32,096 nucleotides of DNA from a virus. Shown here in pieces: positions 5,940-20,330 of the stretch. Positions within the stretch are counted from its first letter, which is position 1. Each line of letters starts with the position of its first letter. The translations under genes were made by a program, and so were the position numbers. The DNA is taken from positions 1-32,096 of IMG/VR virus record IMGVR_UViG_3300033145_001325. One strand, written 5' to 3'. Below the pieces are notes generated by a model. The model worked only from the letters and a program-made list of their open reading frames with translations, was not told where the DNA came from and searched no databases.

Positions 5940-6346
5940 TCTACCACCACCTGTTTTTTTATTCTTCCGTGCCGGCCAGCATCTATTTCAACGGTATAAG
6001 TGCCAGGAATTTCAAATATTACAGGCCAAGTACAGGGCATTTGTCCGTGGGCTTGTTCCTCACCGTCAATATAAAGAACAACTTCAATGCCGTCGCCCTG
6101 TTTGTCAGGCGTCAATGCTGAAATATTAACTTGTTCCATTGCCTCGGGGTTCGTGTTGGAAATTTTGACTTCTACCGGTGTATATGGCACTATATTGTTT
6201 CCTTCTAAATAATATCCCAAGGGAAGAACTTTTATCTTTTGCGCTGTTTCCTTCGTTATTTCAATTTGGCCTTCGTTAAGGGGTACATTAGCTTCTGTCC
6301 TCCCCAACGTTGTTATCATGCTGCCCTGCGTTTCAATCCAAAACAT
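5936..6346 (-). CDS. Tail/fibre-associated protein with Ig-like C-terminus
   Basis: A 136-residue protein. The C-terminal half reads like an immunoglobulin-type beta sandwich (TPVEVKISNTNPEAMEQVNI; VVLYIDGEEQAHGQMPCTWP; VIFEIPGTYTVEIDAGRHGR). The N-terminal part (MFWIETQGSM) is short and hydrophobic. ATG 6346 has GGAGG seven bases upstream and overlaps the preceding stop (TGATG). Ig-like modules decorate tail fibres and capsids and may bind surface glycans. The gene follows a long fibre protein, so a fibre-decoration or chaperone role is possible but inferred. Confidence 0.6.
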   Translation of the reverse strand: MFWIETQGSMITTLGRTEANVPLNEGQIEITKETAQKIKVLPLGYYLEGNNIVPYTPVEVKISNTNPEAMEQVNISALTPDKQGDGIEVVLYIDGEEQAHGQMPCTWPVIFEIPGTYTVEIDAGRHGRIKKQVVVE

Positions 6347-7134
6347 CACTCCACCTCCCAGTCTATCTGACAGTTAAGCGATTGAGCAGCTGTATCTGTA
6401 TTTTCGAATTCTATTACCAAATTAGAGCCGCTGATATATATTTCATTTATCCTGATTTCCTCATGGCCTGTTGCCTTGCGCCCAAAGCCAGAACTAGAAC
6501 CAGCAACCGTTATTTTGCCTAGATATGCTCTAGATATAGCAGCGGCTGAAACGTCAGGACTAGCTCTGTGACCCACGGCTAAGGTTTTAAGATTATCGGT
6601 ATTGAAAAATACCATAACCCCGTGTATTCCCATATCTGTTTCGGTGGTAGTATAATTACTTACAGTTAATTTACCCCTTATTTTATCGCTTCCTATGGCA
6701 ATTTGCTTCGTCAACGTAGACCCAGCATCAATGCTGTCTGTATAATGTACACTTCCGCTGGTTATAGTGCCGCCGTCTAACCTATTTTTGTCAGCCGCAC
6801 TCATAAACCCTGCCACAGAAGTTGTCGCGACTGGGTGTTCAGAAGTCCCACCCTGGCCACGATGGTCTACGCCTTTAAGTTTATCCGCATCCAGCCCACT
6901 CCCTGCGCCGTCTACATTCTTAATTTTGGCTAGTACATCAGCATCCTCATAGTCGCTTGTTAGAACAAAAACATTCCCTGTTACATTTGAACCATGCACT
7001 TGAATATCACTTGTTCCGTCAGTTTTTGCAACCTCAGACTTAACCTCATCGTACTGGGTTTCAAGTTTGTTTAAATTTTCAGCACTAATCCCAGGCGCAC
7101 TGCCTTCAACCCAAGTAGTTTTTGTATACGCCAT
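6346..7134 (-). CDS. Tail fibre / receptor-binding protein
   Basis: A 262-residue protein. The N-terminus MAYTKTTWVEGSAPGISAEN, then LNKLETQYDE, is a phage fibre attachment motif seen in many Firmicutes phages. It is followed by fibre-type repeats (GLDADKLKGVDH at about 78-89; TTSVAGFMSAADKNRLDG) and a beta-rich C-terminal part (GKLTVSNYTTTETDMGIHGV... NLVIEFENTDTAAQSLNCQI) likely to bind the host surface. It sits at the end of the tail operon and is short for a complete fibre, so it may trimerise with the other fibre genes. The family is inferred from composition and motifs. Confidence 0.78.
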   Translation of the reverse strand: MAYTKTTWVEGSAPGISAENLNKLETQYDEVKSEVAKTDGTSDIQVHGSNVTGNVFVLTSDYEDADVLAKIKNVDGAGSGLDADKLKGVDHRGQGGTSEHPVATTSVAGFMSAADKNRLDGGTITSGSVHYTDSIDAGSTLTKQIAIGSDKIRGKLTVSNYTTTETDMGIHGVMVFFNTDNLKTLAVGHRASPDVSAAAISRAYLGKITVAGSSSGFGRKATGHEEIRINEIYISGSNLVIEFENTDTAAQSLNCQIDWEVE

Positions 7135-7608: not shown

Positions 7609-8709
7609 CTAACATGGATAAAGTGTACTGCTAGGGTACAAATCAATGCTCGGCACCGGGCACGCAAACACGTTTTTAACAACGTTTTCTGCCCAAGGCC
7701 ACGATTCACTGTATGTTTGAAGTGTGACTAGTACTTGGTCTTCGCCGATATTTATACGCTCGACAAACGCCTGTCCTCTCGTTGCCATAGCGTGGAACAT
7801 TTTTGCCCAGCTTCCTTGCTCCGGTCCTTCCACGGCAACAACATCGTACCAAAGGGTATTTTGCTCCTCTGTAACTGTTACGGACTCAACCAACAGCTCA
7901 TCATTGTCAAAATCGTGCTCCGGCAGGTTGACAGTAAGCAGCTGTCCAGGCTGAAGACCACTACGCCGCGTCCTAAACCTCAGCCTGCGCCCAATTATTG
8001 CGTATTTTTGGAGTTTCTTGTTAGCAAGCTGAAACGCCGCGTCGCGGTTGGTTATGTTCGGCTCGTCAGCAACATCCTCAACGTAACCCGTGCCGCCGCC
8101 TTCTACTTGCTGCCTGTCTACTATTGCCGCGTTATCTTCGCTTAAAACCACAATGTCATATTCGCCCTGGTAAGTTATCCTTACCTTGTCCGCGCTGGTA
8201 AGAACGGTCTCGGAATCATCTTGAACAATTACAGGGTCGCCTTTGCTCCAGTACCACTGCTTGCCCGTTTCAACTCCTTTAATCCCGATTGTTTGCGCTG
8301 TCCATGCCCCGCCGCTTATGCTTACCTCAACCGTCGGTACTTTTGCGATTGGGAAACCGACCGTAAACGACCGCGCTTCTCCGTCTCCAACCTTTGTCTC
8401 CGTCTGCGGGTCGGTTATATCGCGGCCGCCTTTAACATACTGCCTGTTTCTGTATTTCGGATTTCCGTGCTCTACGCTTACGCTGTCGTGCTTCATGTTG
8501 TCGGCGGTAGCCGTCCAAGGAGCGGCGTTTGATTCTCTGGCTTTGAAATGAAGCCGCCTATATGGGGTTATTCGCCACCAGAAAACGGATTTTTCGGCAA
8601 GTTCGTCAGATGCTTGGGTTACGGGCACATAATTAAAAATGGCCTCCTTGACAACGGGACCGTCTTGAATGTTGTTAGATAAATCTGCCCAGGTAGTTAT
8701 TTTAACCAC
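7609..8709 (-). CDS. Baseplate hub protein, C-terminal part (split gene)
   Basis: A 366-residue protein. From residue 13 it reads IQDGPVVKEAIFNYVPVTQA, then DELAEKSVFWWRITPYRRLH, which normally lies in the middle of siphovirus hub proteins and follows the domain found here in the separate ORF 9759-10166. The rest is beta-rich (SFTVGFPIAKVPTVEVSISG; VRITYQGEYDIVVLSEDNAA; LRFRTRRSGLQPGQLLTVNL). A TAG stop directly precedes the GTG at 8709, so this is a new translation start with AAAGG five bases upstream. Twelve extra residues (VKITTWADLSNN) precede the family start. The first part of the hub is 1.05 kb upstream, beyond three fibre-type genes. I infer that the two parts associate to form one hub. 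Confidence 0.75.
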   Translation of the reverse strand: MVKITTWADLSNNIQDGPVVKEAIFNYVPVTQASDELAEKSVFWWRITPYRRLHFKARESNAAPWTATADNMKHDSVSVEHGNPKYRNRQYVKGGRDITDPQTETKVGDGEARSFTVGFPIAKVPTVEVSISGGAWTAQTIGIKGVETGKQWYWSKGDPVIVQDDSETVLTSADKVRITYQGEYDIVVLSEDNAAIVDRQQVEGGGTGYVEDVADEPNITNRDAAFQLANKKLQKYAIIGRRLRFRTRRSGLQPGQLLTVNLPEHDFDNDELLVESVTVTEEQNTLWYDVVAVEGPEQGSWAKMFHAMATRGQAFVERINIGEDQVLVTLQTYSESWPWAENVVKNVFACPVPSIDLYPSSTLYPC

Positions 8710-8734
8710 CTACCTTTTGTTGCACATTTAAGTC

Positions 8735-8926
8735 CTAAGCTTCATCAATCAAACCTATCTCAATAACTATATCATTAACTAACTCGCGTAGTTCTTTTAC
8801 AGAATTAGCATTCTTTGCTTTGTCTTTTATCCGTTGCCTTCGTACTTTCCTTTTCTGCTGTTCCTGCTCTTTTTGCTGTCTTTCCCGCCCTATTTCCTCC
8901 TGCGTTTTCCAGTGTACTTTACCCAC
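8735..8926 (-). CDS. Small charged coiled-coil protein of the fibre cassette
   Basis: A 63-residue, strongly basic and Gln-rich protein (REEIG-type start: KVHWKTQEEIGRERQQKEQE, then KRKVRRQRIKDKAKNAN). It starts at GTG 8926 with GGAGGTGGG upstream. Short charged proteins often follow tail fibre genes and may be chaperones or connectors. It is the last of the three genes between the hub halves. No family identified. Confidence 0.6.
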   Translation of the reverse strand: MGKVHWKTQEEIGRERQQKEQEQQKRKVRRQRIKDKAKNANSVKELRELVNDIVIEIGLIDEA

Positions 8927-9238
8927 CTAACCCACCTCCTGCCAGTCGGGAAAGCGTTCTTCTGGAGTTGCATCAGGCCCGTGGAAATATAAAAGTTCAA
9001 TTTCAAGCACTCCATCTGCTCGCCTTCGTCCACTCAAAATAGGACAGATTGGCAGAGTTGTCTCAATTAAAAGATTTCCTTCATCATCTCTATCTATTTC
9101 ACCTTCAGGTAAAGAGAAAAAATCAAAAGTATCTGTCATTTCATCTAGAGACGAAATTAGTGTTGCAGTGATAATCTCACCATCAAATTGGTATTTTAAT
9201 TTGTTATCATTACGTTGCGGACTATATTTAACAAGCAT
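8927..9238 (-). CDS. Fibre-cassette protein, unknown (103 aa)
   Basis: An acidic protein starting at ATG 9238 with GGAGG eight bases upstream; the in-frame GTG at 9247 is less well placed. The sequence is beta-like (KYQFDGEIITATLISSLDEM; DRDDEGNLLIETTLPICPIL; GVLEIELLYFHGPDATPEE). Its start overlaps the stop of the preceding fibre gene and its stop is adjacent to the next GTG, so the three genes are coupled. I infer a fibre assembly or connector role from position only. Confidence 0.6.
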   Translation of the reverse strand: MLVKYSPQRNDNKLKYQFDGEIITATLISSLDEMTDTFDFFSLPEGEIDRDDEGNLLIETTLPICPILSGRRRADGVLEIELLYFHGPDATPEERFPDWQEVG

Positions 9239-9759
9239 TACTTCCACCTCCCTATTGCTACCACTGCAACGTAAAACGCATGTCCATCTGGCAACGCGGC
9301 TCCTAATTTAATATTCCACCAATAATTCATAGACAACGAACCGTATCTTATGCCAGTCTGCGCATATCTATTTCCAGAATCAGCAGGAACAGTGTATCCA
9401 CTATTGTAGTGTACTTGTGCCACAAAAATATCTATAAAAGATGCAGGCCAGACTAAATCTGAACGAGAAAAATAAGTTGCCACCCCGTCACCTGTTTCCT
9501 CAAAAATTCTCCAACAAATCTGCATACCGTCAGCAAATCGCACATATTCACCATTCGCGTTAGAACCGCTTTCTTCAATTATTTTCCCGTCCGTAAGTAG
9601 AGAGTGAACATCGTCTGTCGCAGTATCGGCCTTATGTTCAGTAAACCGATCATCAATTGTCTGGAAATTATTAGGTAAATCAGTGCCAATGGTCTGATCT
9701 ATCTGGTCCGTTAATTCCGGCTTTACCAAATTTAAGTCTTTACCTGTTGTGGTTGACAT
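9238..9759 (-). CDS. Tail fibre / tip protein
   Basis: A 173-residue protein. The N-terminus MSTTTGKDLNLVKPELTDQID, with a later NNFQTIDDRFTEHKADTATD, is typical of phage fibre N-termini that dock to the baseplate. The C-terminal part (VRFADGMQICWRIFEE; GVATYFSRSDLVWPASFIDIF; HAFYVAVVAIGRWK) is a glycine- and aromatic-rich beta structure like short tip or receptor-binding domains, usually found at the end of longer fibres. ATG 9759 overlaps the TAA of the hub N-part (TAATG), so it is translationally coupled to it. Confidence 0.75.
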   Translation of the reverse strand: MSTTTGKDLNLVKPELTDQIDQTIGTDLPNNFQTIDDRFTEHKADTATDDVHSLLTDGKIIEESGSNANGEYVRFADGMQICWRIFEETGDGVATYFSRSDLVWPASFIDIFVAQVHYNSGYTVPADSGNRYAQTGIRYGSLSMNYWWNIKLGAALPDGHAFYVAVVAIGRWK

Positions 9760-10166
9760 TATAATTCACCCCACGTTTTGCCCGAATAAGCTTCCCAGGT
9801 TCCAATGCCTTCAGCTTGTAAATAATTGCTAACTATATCTTTTACAATATCTCCCGCCAGCGTATTTTCATAAGCTTTCGCCGCAATGCGTTTGTCGGCA
9901 AGATAATGCCAGTCTACGCATCTAATTGTATGAAGCTTCAAAGCACCAGGTCCCGGCTTCACTTCTTCCGCAGAGTCAATCACGCCTGCAAAAACAAGTG
10001 TGCCGTTGTCGTCTTCGACCTCAACAGGCTGGCCTTTGCGGTAGCTTGCCGTACCGTTATCATCACGCACGACAAACGTACAGGTTGAACGCTCGCCAAT
10101 CATGTCGTCTATGTTGAGCGTGCCCGAAAGGATATTTACCTGATTGCCGCCAATTCTGATTATCAT
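9759..10166 (-). CDS. Baseplate hub protein, N-terminal part (split gene)
   Basis: A 135-residue protein beginning MIIRIGGNQVNILSGTLNID, then RSTCTFVVRDDNG, KGQPVEVEDDNGTLVFAGVI and HTIRCVDWHYLADKRIAAKA, ending LAGDIVKDIVSNYLQAEGIG then TWEAYSGKTWGEL and TAA. The first about 120 residues match the N-terminal domain of siphovirus hub proteins (gp27-like fold) as I know the family. The expected continuation IQDGPVV appears only at 8670, in the separate C-part. The ATG overlaps the tape-measure stop (ATGA), the normal hub position. It is therefore half of a split gene, not a complete small protein. Confidence 0.78.
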   Translation of the reverse strand: MIIRIGGNQVNILSGTLNIDDMIGERSTCTFVVRDDNGTASYRKGQPVEVEDDNGTLVFAGVIDSAEEVKPGPGALKLHTIRCVDWHYLADKRIAAKAYENTLAGDIVKDIVSNYLQAEGIGTWEAYSGKTWGEL

Positions 10167-11869
10167 ATTCTTACCCCCGTTCTGATACGCACTTCGTCAG
10201 TAAGCGGCTGTCCTATTGCACGCGCAATCTGTCTGCCATCGAGGTAGATTGTTATGTTTGCGGTTTTGGGACCGCTCTGTCTGGGCGGAATTATCTCCTC
10301 TCCGCCGTGCACCACGGCAAGTTGCGGTTTCCCAATCGGCCCGGGCACAATGCCGCCGGCTGCGAATTTTGGTAACTTTTCTTGCGAAATCGGAATGCCT
10401 ATTTTGGAATAATCTATATCCAACTTTAATTCATGCTTTAACTTCATTGCCGCGCCCAACTGGCGCAAGTATTCTTTGCTTTTGCCGATTGGATAACCGA
10501 CACGCTTTACCCACTCTCTCGTTCGCGCATCTAACCTTGCCAAAGCTTTTGTAACTTCATCAGTTTTTTTCGCCAATTCACCTTGTGCTTTAGCCATGCT
10601 GTTGGCAGCGTCAGCAGCGCTAAACATTGATTTTATGTTCGAATTTAATGCCGGCACTTGTTGTGTTACATTTTCTGTCGTACTGCGAATCTGTTTTTCA
10701 AGTTGTGCCATTTCATACCCGGCCTTGCGTGCCGAAAGGGTAATGCGCTCATGGTCAATCATGCGCCCTACTTTTTCTCTGGCCTCAGTTACTTTGCTAT
10801 TTAAAACTGGGATGTACTTTGTAAACTTTTCAAGACCGATTAATATGGAGTGTATTGCGTCAAGGACCACCATCTTAATATAACCCCAGGCCTGGAGTGC
10901 GTAATAAGAAACTTTATCCCAGTTTTTGTAGAGAGCAATACCGGCGGCGATGAGCAAACCAATTGGCGTCAATAAAAATGATAATGCTGCTGCAAGCGCG
11001 CCTGCACCCATAATTAGCGGTCCTACAACAGCAACTACGCCTGCAATAGTAAGAATTAATTTTTTGGTCTTATCGTCAAGGCTTGTAAACCAATGAACCG
11101 CATTTCTAATTACACTTATTAGCTTTGCTGCATAAGGCATTAGTTCTTTGCCAATTGCCTCTCCGGCATTTTTAATATCAGCTTTCAGCGCTTTTAGCTG
11201 GTTGGCAAAGCTTCCTGCTGTTCGTATAGCATCCCCTTGGGCATCCGTCGTACCTTTTATGAGAAGTTGCATCCTTGCTTGCACTTTTTGCTGTTCTGAT
11301 AGTTTTTCGCCTACTTTTGCAATTCCTGATGAATAAGCTTCTTGTTTTAGGGCTGCCTCAGTAATAATAACTCCATATTTACGGACTGTTTCATGATTGC
11401 CGACAATAGCCGATTGAAAATCGCGGATAACATCTGCATCGGCTGCATTGTTGAATGATGCAACGTCAACAGCAAGCTGCGTCAGCGTTTTAGACATATC
11501 AGATGCTTCATCTCTGGCATATCCTAACGGTACAAATGTATCTTGAAGTGTAGACATCCAGCTCTTTACGTCTGTTCTTGCCCGACCAACGCTATCAGCA
11601 AATTGTATTGCCCATTGATTAGCGTCTTGAGCCATTTCACCAAATACTACATTAAACTTGCTTTGAACTTCTTCGGCATCAGAGGCCATTTTGATAGCCG
11701 CACCTGAAACCGCTAAAAACGGAAGTGTTACTTTTGTAGTGAGGTCACGGCCAAGTGACATCGCACTCTGCTTAAAAGAATTAAGTGTTTTTTGAGCGCC
11801 CTGCACATTCTTACTAAAACCGCTTGCGTCAGCGCCTATTTTAACAATCAATGATGCAAGGGTTGCCAT
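10163..11869 (-). CDS. Tape measure protein
   Basis: A 568-residue protein: N-terminal phage-tail motif (MATLASLIVKIGADASGFSK), coiled/helical segments, a tape-measure-type core (DAEEVQSKFNVVFGEMAQDA; LTTKVTLPFLAVSGAAIKMA), two hydrophobic stretches at about 268-310 (LILTIAGVVAVVGPLIMGAG; ALSFLLTPIGLLIAAGIALY) and a C-terminal part (KFAAGGIVPGPIGKPQLAVV, HGGEEIIPPRQ) ending in basic residues. Tape measures set tail length; 568 residues suggests a short tail of roughly 80-90 nm at about 0.15 nm per residue. It is read after the chaperone, but an antisense gene with its own terminator lies between them. The start is ATG 11869 with AAAGGGGG upstream. Confidence 0.92.
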   Translation of the reverse strand: MATLASLIVKIGADASGFSKNVQGAQKTLNSFKQSAMSLGRDLTTKVTLPFLAVSGAAIKMASDAEEVQSKFNVVFGEMAQDANQWAIQFADSVGRARTDVKSWMSTLQDTFVPLGYARDEASDMSKTLTQLAVDVASFNNAADADVIRDFQSAIVGNHETVRKYGVIITEAALKQEAYSSGIAKVGEKLSEQQKVQARMQLLIKGTTDAQGDAIRTAGSFANQLKALKADIKNAGEAIGKELMPYAAKLISVIRNAVHWFTSLDDKTKKLILTIAGVVAVVGPLIMGAGALAAALSFLLTPIGLLIAAGIALYKNWDKVSYYALQAWGYIKMVVLDAIHSILIGLEKFTKYIPVLNSKVTEAREKVGRMIDHERITLSARKAGYEMAQLEKQIRSTTENVTQQVPALNSNIKSMFSAADAANSMAKAQGELAKKTDEVTKALARLDARTREWVKRVGYPIGKSKEYLRQLGAAMKLKHELKLDIDYSKIGIPISQEKLPKFAAGGIVPGPIGKPQLAVVHGGEEIIPPRQSGPKTANITIYLDGRQIARAIGQPLTDEVRIRTGVRI

Positions 11870-11936
11870 TTAAAAGCCCCCTTTTGTCCCTGTCATATTA
11901 ATAAGCATGTATAAATATAAATAAACTGGAATAATA

Positions 11937-18097: not shown

Positions 18098-19591
18098 CCG
18101 CTTCGCCTCCTCGAATTTATTTTTCTCGCCATACACAGCCGCTTTGATTTCTGTCCTCAGTCCTTCGACTAGATCGGGTCTATTGCGCTTAACCTCGTCC
18201 AATGTAATGGCATCCCAGTTCACTTCATCTTCACTCCTTCCCGCTGCCTTTGCCCTGGCAGCTTCGAATAGCTCAATCACTTTGCCGCCAGCCCCGGGAG
18301 TAGTGACAAAGTCCACGCTTTCTGCTGCGGCGATTTTCTCTATAATGGGGCCTGTCTTTCCTTCCGCCTCTCCTTGTTTGGCTTTGCCCAGGGCTCGATG
18401 GCTAATGCCAATGTGCGGAGCTAGCTCTTTGACAGCTTCTTGATACGGCCCAAATACCTTAGCATCAGCATAAATACCGGGGCCGTCCGGGCCATTTTCC
18501 TCAAAACGTCCATCGGAAACCAAAACGCCCGCTAGGTCTCTCAACGAGCGCTCAGGCCGTTCGTTTTCTTCGGTTTTAGTCGGATGGTCCCAGTACATTT
18601 TTAAACCGGCTTTGTAGACGCCGGTGTCTCTTTCAAGAACTTCTTTAGAATAATACCCGGAATTACCCCAGCCTGGCTGAATAATTTTAATGGGGATAGT
18701 CCCATCCCTGCGGACTGCCTTCTCAACAAGAGGAATAAATTCGCCTGCTAAGTTTTGTTCACCATCAGATTCTTTAATGTGCGCCGGCATTTCTTTCGGG
18801 TCCCGGTCCGGATTAACCTTCTTCCAAGCTGCTCTAAGCTTGGCTTTTACTTTCGCCACATCCTTTGCTGGGATATCTACTTTTTGCCCCCGGAATCCTC
18901 CAGGACTGAAGGCTGCAATAGCACGGCCCACCTGCGCTGCTGTCATCTTCTTCTGTGGGTCTTCCCACAGCCGAAGTTTCCACGTGCTTGGCTTGTCGGG
19001 ATCGGGCACGTATGTATAAGCTTCTGCCGGATACTGCTTTCCGTCCTCGGTTTTGGTCTTGGCCTCTTCTAATCCACGGTTAGATTCCTGCGTTTTTACG
19101 GGTTTGTAAGTTATTTCTTTTACTACTTCAACCGGATCACCCAGCATTACCTTGCCGTTGTCGTCAATAACATAAGTACGCTTAAAGAGCTTCATTTTGC
19201 CGGTAGCATCATCCCGAGGTTCATCTTCGTAGATGAAATAACTGCTGAAAACGTCACGGATGAAGTACCACCGTTTGGTTGCTGGGTTCTCATTGTGCAA
19301 GGCCTGCCGCAACTGTTGCCGGATCTGGTCATGGCTCAGTTCTGCTTCAATCAGTTTTTTTGCTTCCCAGATTGCTTTTTTCTTTTCGGCCTCTTCTACG
19401 TTATCACCCTGCCCCAGTTTGGCTATAATATCCTGCAGCGCTTTGATGGCCGCTTTGATTTTGTTTTCATTATCCTTGCTGACCACTCTGCCGACTTCTT
19501 CAAGTCTCTGCAAGGTATCTTGAACTTCATTCATGCTTTCCGTCACCACTCTTTCTGCAATTCGGTCACCGATCCAGATTGGCAAGAGCAT
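17675..19591 (-). CDS. XkdF-like prohead protease with C-terminal scaffold (fusion)
   Basis: A 638-residue protein. The N-terminal third is helical and then reads TWKLRLWEDPQKKMTAAQVG and AFSPGGFRGQKVDIPAKDVA, a segment I know from phage head proteins. About 278-450 is the XkdF-like protease part: GTIPIKIIQPGWGNSGYYSK, MYWDHPTKTEENERPERSLR (His of the active site), LAGVLVSDGRF, GIYADAKVFGPYQEAVKELA, HIGISHRALGKAK (Ser), ESVDFVTTPGAGGKVIELFE. The last about 140 residues are coiled-coil scaffold (KLKKLEETNSKLEEENKRLK). ATG 19591 has AAGGGGG seven bases upstream and overlaps the end of the Asn-synthetase-like gene. Function: prohead maturation and scaffolding. An internal start yields free scaffold. 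Confidence 0.83.
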   Translation of the reverse strand: MLLPIWIGDRIAERVVTESMNEVQDTLQRLEEVGRVVSKDNENKIKAAIKALQDIIAKLGQGDNVEEAEKKKAIWEAKKLIEAELSHDQIRQQLRQALHNENPATKRWYFIRDVFSSYFIYEDEPRDDATGKMKLFKRTYVIDDNGKVMLGDPVEVVKEITYKPVKTQESNRGLEEAKTKTEDGKQYPAEAYTYVPDPDKPSTWKLRLWEDPQKKMTAAQVGRAIAAFSPGGFRGQKVDIPAKDVAKVKAKLRAAWKKVNPDRDPKEMPAHIKESDGEQNLAGEFIPLVEKAVRRDGTIPIKIIQPGWGNSGYYSKEVLERDTGVYKAGLKMYWDHPTKTEENERPERSLRDLAGVLVSDGRFEENGPDGPGIYADAKVFGPYQEAVKELAPHIGISHRALGKAKQGEAEGKTGPIIEKIAAAESVDFVTTPGAGGKVIELFEAARAKAAGRSEDEVNWDAITLDEVKRNRPDLVEGLRTEIKAAVYGEKNKFEEAKRMSDEKLKKLEETNSKLEEENKRLKESLILREARDFVSEQLKEAKLPDITKQRLVESLAQKPMLKDGELDKDEYKKKIKEAIDAEVDYLAKVTGSGKIKGMGEGGSGDVNLEEVEKTLESSFARLGLTESAAKIAAKGREV

Positions 19592-20330
19592 GCACAAACC
19601 CCCTTTTTGGGCGCTGAATCACCCATTCCGGTACCCCAGCCAGACGGGCAACCTCGCGCCAAAATGCTTTACCGATCCCATCCCGGACCCGCTCACTCAA
19701 TGGAATCCGGGCAATGTAGCCAACAACAGTGGGCTGGAGATATACCCAGTGGAGATTGACTCCCACCTGGTCCGCCGCCCGGAACATCGGCTTCAGGTGT
19801 TTTGGCTCAAGCTCGTTCCAAAAATACTCAAACGCATCCTCAATTCTTGGAAACTGTTCATCTCTGTGACTGTGCCACCAGTAACCGCCCATCTGCTCGT
19901 CGATGCCGTCGGTGGCAATGATATCCGTAACCCACTTGGAAGCGAACCGCAAGGCCAACAGAACGCCATCGTCGCCCGGGAAGTATAGGCCTCGAACCTC
20001 TCTTCGGGCAGATTCCTTAGCCTGCCTACTCGGGACATACAGGCGCCAGTCAATGCCCCATTCCTCCGCCAGTCGCCCTGCCGCGATCACATCGGGGTGG
20101 TCTAATCCGGTCCCAATTGTGAAGCACGGAACGTCAGGGCTCACCTTTCGCAGGAGTGCCACCAGCAGGGCACTGTCAACGCCCGCAGACAGCAGAACAC
20201 CGGGGCGTTCGCACCAGCGAACCGTTTCCGTGACGACCTTCTCCAAGAGCTCAATCAGGCCAGCAGCAGAATAGGAACCATCAGTCGGATTCCTCCAACT
20301 GCCGATTTGCGCAGGGAACCTCCTGACCAT
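19566..20330 (-). CDS. Stand-alone asparagine-synthetase-like ATPase (PP-loop)
   Basis: A 254-residue protein equal to the C-terminal (synthetase) domain of asparagine synthetases. The PP-loop is LLSAGVDSALL at about 46-56 (canonical SGGxDS, here SAGVDS). ATDGIDEQMGGY at 139-150 matches the G-D-G-x-D-E-x-x-G-G-Y motif. Residues about 185-245 match the tail, with LPxS...DGIGKAFWREVARL and IQRPKRGF (239-245). There is no N-terminal glutaminase (Ntn) domain, so it would use free ammonia or another nucleophile after adenylating a carboxylate. It overlaps the ChaB-like gene by 50 bases and the protease gene by 26, so it is coupled to the head operon. ATG 20330 has GGAGGC upstream. The substrate is unknown: lysine-rich or acidic head proteins, DNA bases and small metabolites are all possible. 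Confidence 0.85.
   Translation of the reverse strand: MVRRFPAQIGSWRNPTDGSYSAAGLIELLEKVVTETVRWCERPGVLLSAGVDSALLVALLRKVSPDVPCFTIGTGLDHPDVIAAGRLAEEWGIDWRLYVPSRQAKESARREVRGLYFPGDDGVLLALRFASKWVTDIIATDGIDEQMGGYWWHSHRDEQFPRIEDAFEYFWNELEPKHLKPMFRAADQVGVNLHWVYLQPTVVGYIARIPLSERVRDGIGKAFWREVARLAGVPEWVIQRPKRGFVHALANLDR

Follow-up and report, generated by a model that had tools for sequence, protein, structure and literature searches.

A probable two-chain baseplate hub divided by a tail-fibre cassette in a metagenomic virus

Genes at the split-hub locus

The window, by which we mean the whole stretch of 32,096 nucleotides analysed here (IMG/VR virus record IMGVR_UViG_3300033145_001325), carries a hub gene in two parts on the minus strand, 3' of the tape measure gene (10163-11869, minus strand; PHROG 991 among its matches). 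All coordinates of the locus were re-checked and upheld. The N-part (9759-10166) encodes 135 aa, comprising a first tube domain (HDI-like) and the next helix, which align to residues 1-121 of the unbroken hub of a relative, L003, followed by a C-terminal tryptophan tail, GTWEAYSGKTWGEL (9762-9803), and a stop codon. The C-part (7609-8709) encodes 366 aa that cover an HDII to HDIV-like region. It starts with a GTG at 8709, which is preceded by an in-frame TAG and by an AAGG sequence resembling a ribosome site, and it opens with a tryptophan motif of its own, VKITTWADLSNN (8674-8709). The hub adjoins the tape measure gene on its 5' side and fibres on its 3' side, as gp27/gp44-like hubs do. The fibre further downstream (6346-7134) is an ordinary one (PHROG tail fiber, E 1e-8) with another leader, shared with a fibre of L003 at 8526-9398.

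The gap in the hub, likewise read on the minus strand, holds one fibre gene, one fibre-chaperone-like gene and one small charged gene. An earlier note on this DNA had described three fibre-type genes, a description that suits only the first of them. The fibre (9238-9759, 173 aa) matches PHROG 2712 tail fiber (E 3e-18), and L237 encodes a full-length relative of it (41%, E 2e-29); the fibre ATG overlaps the stop codon of the N-part (TAATG). Its 47-aa N-terminal leader (9619-9759), LxLxKPExTDxI..NFQxIDD, is common to L002 (87%), L218, L219, L009 and L184. The second gene (8927-9247, 103-106 aa, with the ATG at 9238 as its likely start) resembles a gene located 3' of a related fibre in L008 (pairwise E 8e-6) as well as PHROG 2398 (E 0.004). 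The third (8735-8926, 63 aa) recalls the small genes of L087, L184 and L219 by position and make-up, while BLAST found no significant similarity between it and the small gene of L087. The starts of these last two genes overlap or abut the preceding gene. No tRNA was found. Elsewhere in the window, among the head genes, a protein encoded at 19566-20330 resembles the asparagine-synthase/ATP-pyrophosphatase domain (LSAGVDSALL).

Hub identity and relatives

As the closure of the tail tube, the hub protein is commonly regarded as one conserved chain. Here, the two parts match different regions of the Phage_GPD profile, 28-101 for the N-part (E 5.5e-6) and 224-304 for the C-part (E 0.0019), both below the curated cut-off, which the unbroken hub of L003 clears (37.6 bits vs 30.1). 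The division of one hub gene that the earlier note had proposed is confirmed.

The hub fold was assessed on a model of the unbroken L003 hub, not on the window halves as a complex. This hub, 59-64% identical to the window halves, models well (pLDDT 87) and resembles solved hubs (Foldseek E 1e-17 to 7e-9), with Z scores of 27.6 for HFTV1, 21.1 for Mu gp44 and 17.9 for T4 gp27. The split point maps to a loop at residues 120-135 of L003, behind the first barrel and the helix that follows it. Modelled alone, the C-part reached a pLDDT of 67 and a pTM of 0.44, its first 57 residues lying mostly below 50 where the same region scores above 90 within the unbroken hub model; part of this deficit may be due to the alignment being shallower (28 vs 58 rows). 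The lone model fits a C-part that would need the N-part, in a comparison confounded by alignment depth. Between the window and L002, dN/dS is 0.113 for the N-part and 0.077 for the C-part (dS 0.22 and 0.73, respectively); purifying selection acts on both halves. As claimed earlier, both are translatable, each from its own start.

Viral contigs were scanned with N-part and C-part profiles. About 180 fetched loci have both regions in one ORF; many overlap, and among the roughly 100 distinct relatives the hub is unbroken in all but a few. The closest relative, L002, has the same split (N-part 96% and C-part 90% identical). Next come the unbroken hubs of L003 (64%) and L010 (61%), and further unbroken relatives include L004 and vir515, the latter (Methanosarcinales) being the only relative from an isolate collection. 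L003 combines an unbroken hub with a fibre located elsewhere, the arrangement that the earlier note proposed to look for. Two findings that would have told against that note were not made: the split is not universal among the relatives, and the window contig contains no second hub. In L003, two fibre-like proteins rich in N/S/T/Y and Cys (9412-10035 and 10048-10422) lie beside a protein (10446-11879) with a CNLDCDYC motif like that of radical-SAM enzymes; here a fibre may be modified enzymatically.

The loop at which the hub is split also receives in-frame inserts of about 390 to 1,130 residues in the unbroken hubs of L022, L032 and L037, and two of these inserts (L022, L037) contain Laminin_G_3 lectin domains. 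Host-binding matter can thus enter the hub at this loop quite generally, whether as in-frame sequence or as complete genes. In the N-part/C-part region, large in-frame inserts were recorded at 4622-8001 in L022, 6098-8010 in L032, 6827-8001 in L037 and 7463-7992 in L126. L038 (2101-2660) and L039 (8690-9249) carry about 186 extra residues in frame at a second hub site, within the C-part. The hub N and C regions of L082 (7484-9287) and L208 (2579-4574) lie in different overlapping frames near the same loop; these are probably sequencing frameshifts, even if their position is suggestive.

Cassette exchange and tryptophan tails

The cassette content has been swapped between the window and L002, contrary to the earlier suggestion that the fibre genes are now fixed between the halves. 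After the shared 47-aa leader the L002 fibre has a different C-terminal part, and its cassette further comprises a gene of 162 aa with weak matches of Ig-like type and a small gene; likeness to the window resumes 45 nt before the C-part start. Exchange is bounded by the fibre leader on one side and by this 45-nt stretch 5' of the C-part on the other. Judged from these sequences, the best reading is that the cassette evolves through exchange behind a conserved leader. The three-gene order with a related leader is also found outside hubs: a 773-aa fibre, a 95-108-aa gene and a 48-aa gene follow a BppU_N protein in L219. The full-length relative of the window fibre in L237 directly follows a whole tail protein ending RTWNDFTGTSWNDLA.

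Other observations concern sequence exchange around and within these cassettes. The downstream fibre of the window (6346-7134) and that of L002 (9576-10364) are 100% identical in DNA, while the hub C-part has a dS of 0.73; the tape measure N-termini differ between the two, and strong mosaicism flanks the hub on both sides. The L184 and L194 fibres have nearly identical ends and a differing middle stretch, which makes them a second example of exchange within a cassette. In L184, L194 and L087 it is in the cassette that the contig breaks.

A TW motif occurs in none of 110 unbroken hub loops, and TW motifs are found at the N-part ends of both split lineages (window/L002 and L184/L194) and at the C-part heads of window/L002 and L087. 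The TW(G/A)(E/D)L echo on the two sides of the cassette had been taken as a hint of a junction duplication. The motif does exist, but other lineages show TW motifs at their split ends too, as do unrelated proteins (Dit, Tal and BppU-like) at theirs, and a target-site duplication was rejected accordingly.

The genes directly 5' of fibres with a window-type leader were surveyed for such tails. Proteins preceding these fibres end in RTWNDFTGANWEVLT in L218, ATWEIFNEGVI in L219 (BppU_N) and TKWSDYAPTTQWSGLNP in L009 (Dit), and further Dit proteins end in YTWEEYKNQKWGDFIGN in L223 and TTWHAFAGKKWSDL in Brevibacillus phage Sundance, to be compared with GTWEAYSGKTWGEL in the window. In a held-out set (L232, L234, whose carrier is a Tal protein, PF06605, and L236 to L239), a preset tail pattern was found in 5 of 6 proteins, L236 being the exception, vs 3.4% of background ORFs, and a double W in 6 of 6 vs 4.2%; these counts are not independent, since the carriers fall in few protein families (Dit, Tal and the L237 tail protein). 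The tail carriers have unrelated folds, as the Tal of L234 and further Dit proteins are among them. Variants exist: in L184 the double W is replaced by W...F, and L219 has only one W. Among isolated phages, the leader of the window itself gave no match; matches were obtained only via its relatives, and of the phages matched in this way only Sundance has a clear tail. Sundance, L234 and L239 resemble the window in having a pre-fibre protein with the same tail and the same leader behind it, and differ in their carrier, an entire Dit or Tal. Tryptophan-rich repeats occur in other proteins as well. The hub N-termini of L047, L049, L050, L051 and L082 bear a triple tryptophan repeat (TWQDVLNLGTWHEVLPYTWYEI and variants) that is like the docking tail proposed below but internal, and a tail-region protein of L229 (MW202711, ctyzp037; 497-1474) has five terminal tryptophan repeats, NWTDL..NTWTEL..SWTPA..IWTKL..SWAKKAA.

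Since Dit, Tal and BppU-like proteins encoded directly 5' of leader fibres finish in this type of tail, we infer that the new C-terminal tail of the N-part docks the N-terminal leader of the fibre. The docking peptide would then travel with its fibre, and the break would give the hub surface a docking tail with a free end. A dock that acts as a free C-terminus would also explain, on this view, why the hub was cut instead of only being decorated. In a partial coverage of the literature, nothing was found on a tryptophan tail docking fibres.

The tail could instead be a linker or seam joining the halves of a two-chain hub that contains the same fibre cassette, with no role as a fibre dock. Such a seam would account for the TW motifs at both new ends, the N-part tail and the C-part head, the latter being of no need to the docking model, and both ends do meet at one loop of the fold. 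It accounts poorly for the presence of this tail, directly 5' of the same leader, on proteins other than split hubs (Dit, Tal and BppU-like), and we consider it possible but rather doubtful. As for the docking view, we lean slightly towards a general form of it, in which the double-tryptophan tail and the leader constitute a transplantable plug-and-socket, grafted on Dit, Tal, BppU-like proteins and the hub, with hubs broken independently more than once at one loop for the sake of the socket.

Recurrence of the split

The N-parts of L184 and L194, about 40% identical to that of the window, stop at the same loop. After the stop come a fibre with a homologous leader, a chaperone (PHROG 1766, E 2e-10) and the start of a small gene. 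The L184 contig ends in this small gene and its opposite end begins inside the hub C-part, so that L184 is probably a circular or permuted genome cut within the cassette; the contig ends do not overlap and the C-part start lies outside the sequenced contig. The Spirochaetaceae contig L087 covers part of a cassette, inside which it starts, and a free-standing C-part headed MIETWDDM, which the C-part head of the window resembles; the N-part falls off the contig. The Spirochaete genome containing L087 has no recognisable N-part, and the six family members of that genome have no such hub.

In a tree of 89 hubs, window and L002 group beside the unbroken L003 (SH-aLRT 98), L184 and L194 beside the unbroken L097 (91), and L087 stands separately. 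A single clade of all split hubs was rejected (AU p 0.00047) in a test weakened by the long branches of L087 and L184, and the support values are those of a quick search. The loop has been split independently at least once more, in L184/L194, and L087 is a probable third split lineage. The direction assumed by the earlier note, from intact to split, agrees with the unbroken hubs of nearly all relatives and with the nesting of window and L002 by unbroken L003.

One ancient split, inherited by every split phage and followed by re-fusion in the others, would explain why the window and L184 resemble each other in tail motif and have leaders of one kind. Yet the tree requires three changes, it rejects the single clade and places window and L002 with an unbroken hub, and most lineages would need re-fusion; we judge this history improbable.

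The two halves might also be joined after transcription, by an intron, ribosomal bypass or read-through, giving a single-chain hub in which the cassette is an intron-like element with genes of its own. The reading frames are compatible, and a 10-bp stem with an AAA loop (8690-8712, minus strand) spans the GTG start of the C-part and is identical in L002 though its flanks differ; we grade this stem as weak since its folding z-score is only -1.5. Rfam searches at E up to 1 returned no intron family and gave only sub-threshold snoRNA matches, on which an intron or RNA element was rejected. Moreover, the N-part stop and the fibre start are coupled to each other, a separate start site serves the C-part, and the tail preceding the stop is a real C-terminus in unrelated proteins, all of which makes joining very unlikely. 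Finally, an artefactual break or a dead gene, through assembly chimerism or decay, is hardly credible, for if the locus is known only from a metagenome contig and the L082 and L208 splits look like frameshifts, the same split occurs in a separate contig whose C-part DNA has diverged by 15%, both halves have a dN/dS of about 0.1 and another lineage (L184/L194) shows the same layout.

Known two-chain hubs and implications

Two-chain hubs, which the earlier note does not mention, are a known kind, given the precedents of lambda gpL/gpJ and RcGTA g13/g15, which are split after HDI with genes between (PMC10721106). The hubs of T5, T4 and 80alpha are single chains (PMC10721106), as is that of LSH1 (PMC13243795), and in T5 hdII and its insertion sit at the linker between the two tube domains (PMC10038345). 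Mu gp44, T4 gp27 and the HFTV1 hub, which share the fold of the unbroken relative L003, are encoded, like T5 pb3, by a single gene in which inserts in this region are in frame. The same holds for L022, L032 and L037, which belong to the hub family of the window and have its insertion point, but in which the host-binding insert remains within one chain.

Lambda is like the window in having HDI on the upstream gene and HDII-IV downstream with tail genes between (PMC10721106), and we confirmed the L-K-I-J order in J02459. However, the lambda gap contains K and I (assembly/plug) instead of the three-gene fibre cassette, and gpL has an iron-sulphur C-terminal domain (four-cysteine), while the window N-part has two cysteines only, both in the conserved body. 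Comparison of the window hub with gpL/gpJ by hhalign gave a probability of about 1%, and profile comparisons with T5 pb3 and lambda gpJ/gpL were not significant. Consequently, the equivalence with the lambda break is one of fold order only, the break being located on the L003 model. The RcGTA hub g13 and megatron g15 offer the same two-chain layout, with g14 between (PMC10721106). In RcGTA, an oligosaccharide-binding domain lies within the hub protein (PMC7296036) and no fibre gene is described in the break; the RcGTA-type four-cysteine cluster is absent from the window.

Taken together, we think it likely that the hub of the window is made as two chains, split by a three-gene fibre cassette at the HDI/HDII junction loop, its front half bearing a fibre-docking tail. 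Insertion of the fibre, chaperone-like and small genes at this loop would have led to synthesis of two chains, and by analogy with lambda gpL and gpJ the N-part and C-part would reassemble into one hub. As far as the partial literature goes, two-chain hubs are already known, while a fibre cassette at such a break together with its exchange, the repeated origin of the split in an otherwise unbroken family and the tail/leader pairing appear to be new.

The hub gene as a repeated landing site for host-binding genes changes how hubs are to be annotated, and half-hubs may pass for unrelated small genes. Even recent structural work has left fibre attachment open, its authors stating that they could not establish the mode of attachment for the LSH1 and Jersey side fibres (PMC13243795). 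If the pairing of tail and leader is true, a short sequence rule would predict the baseplate protein to which a fibre attaches.
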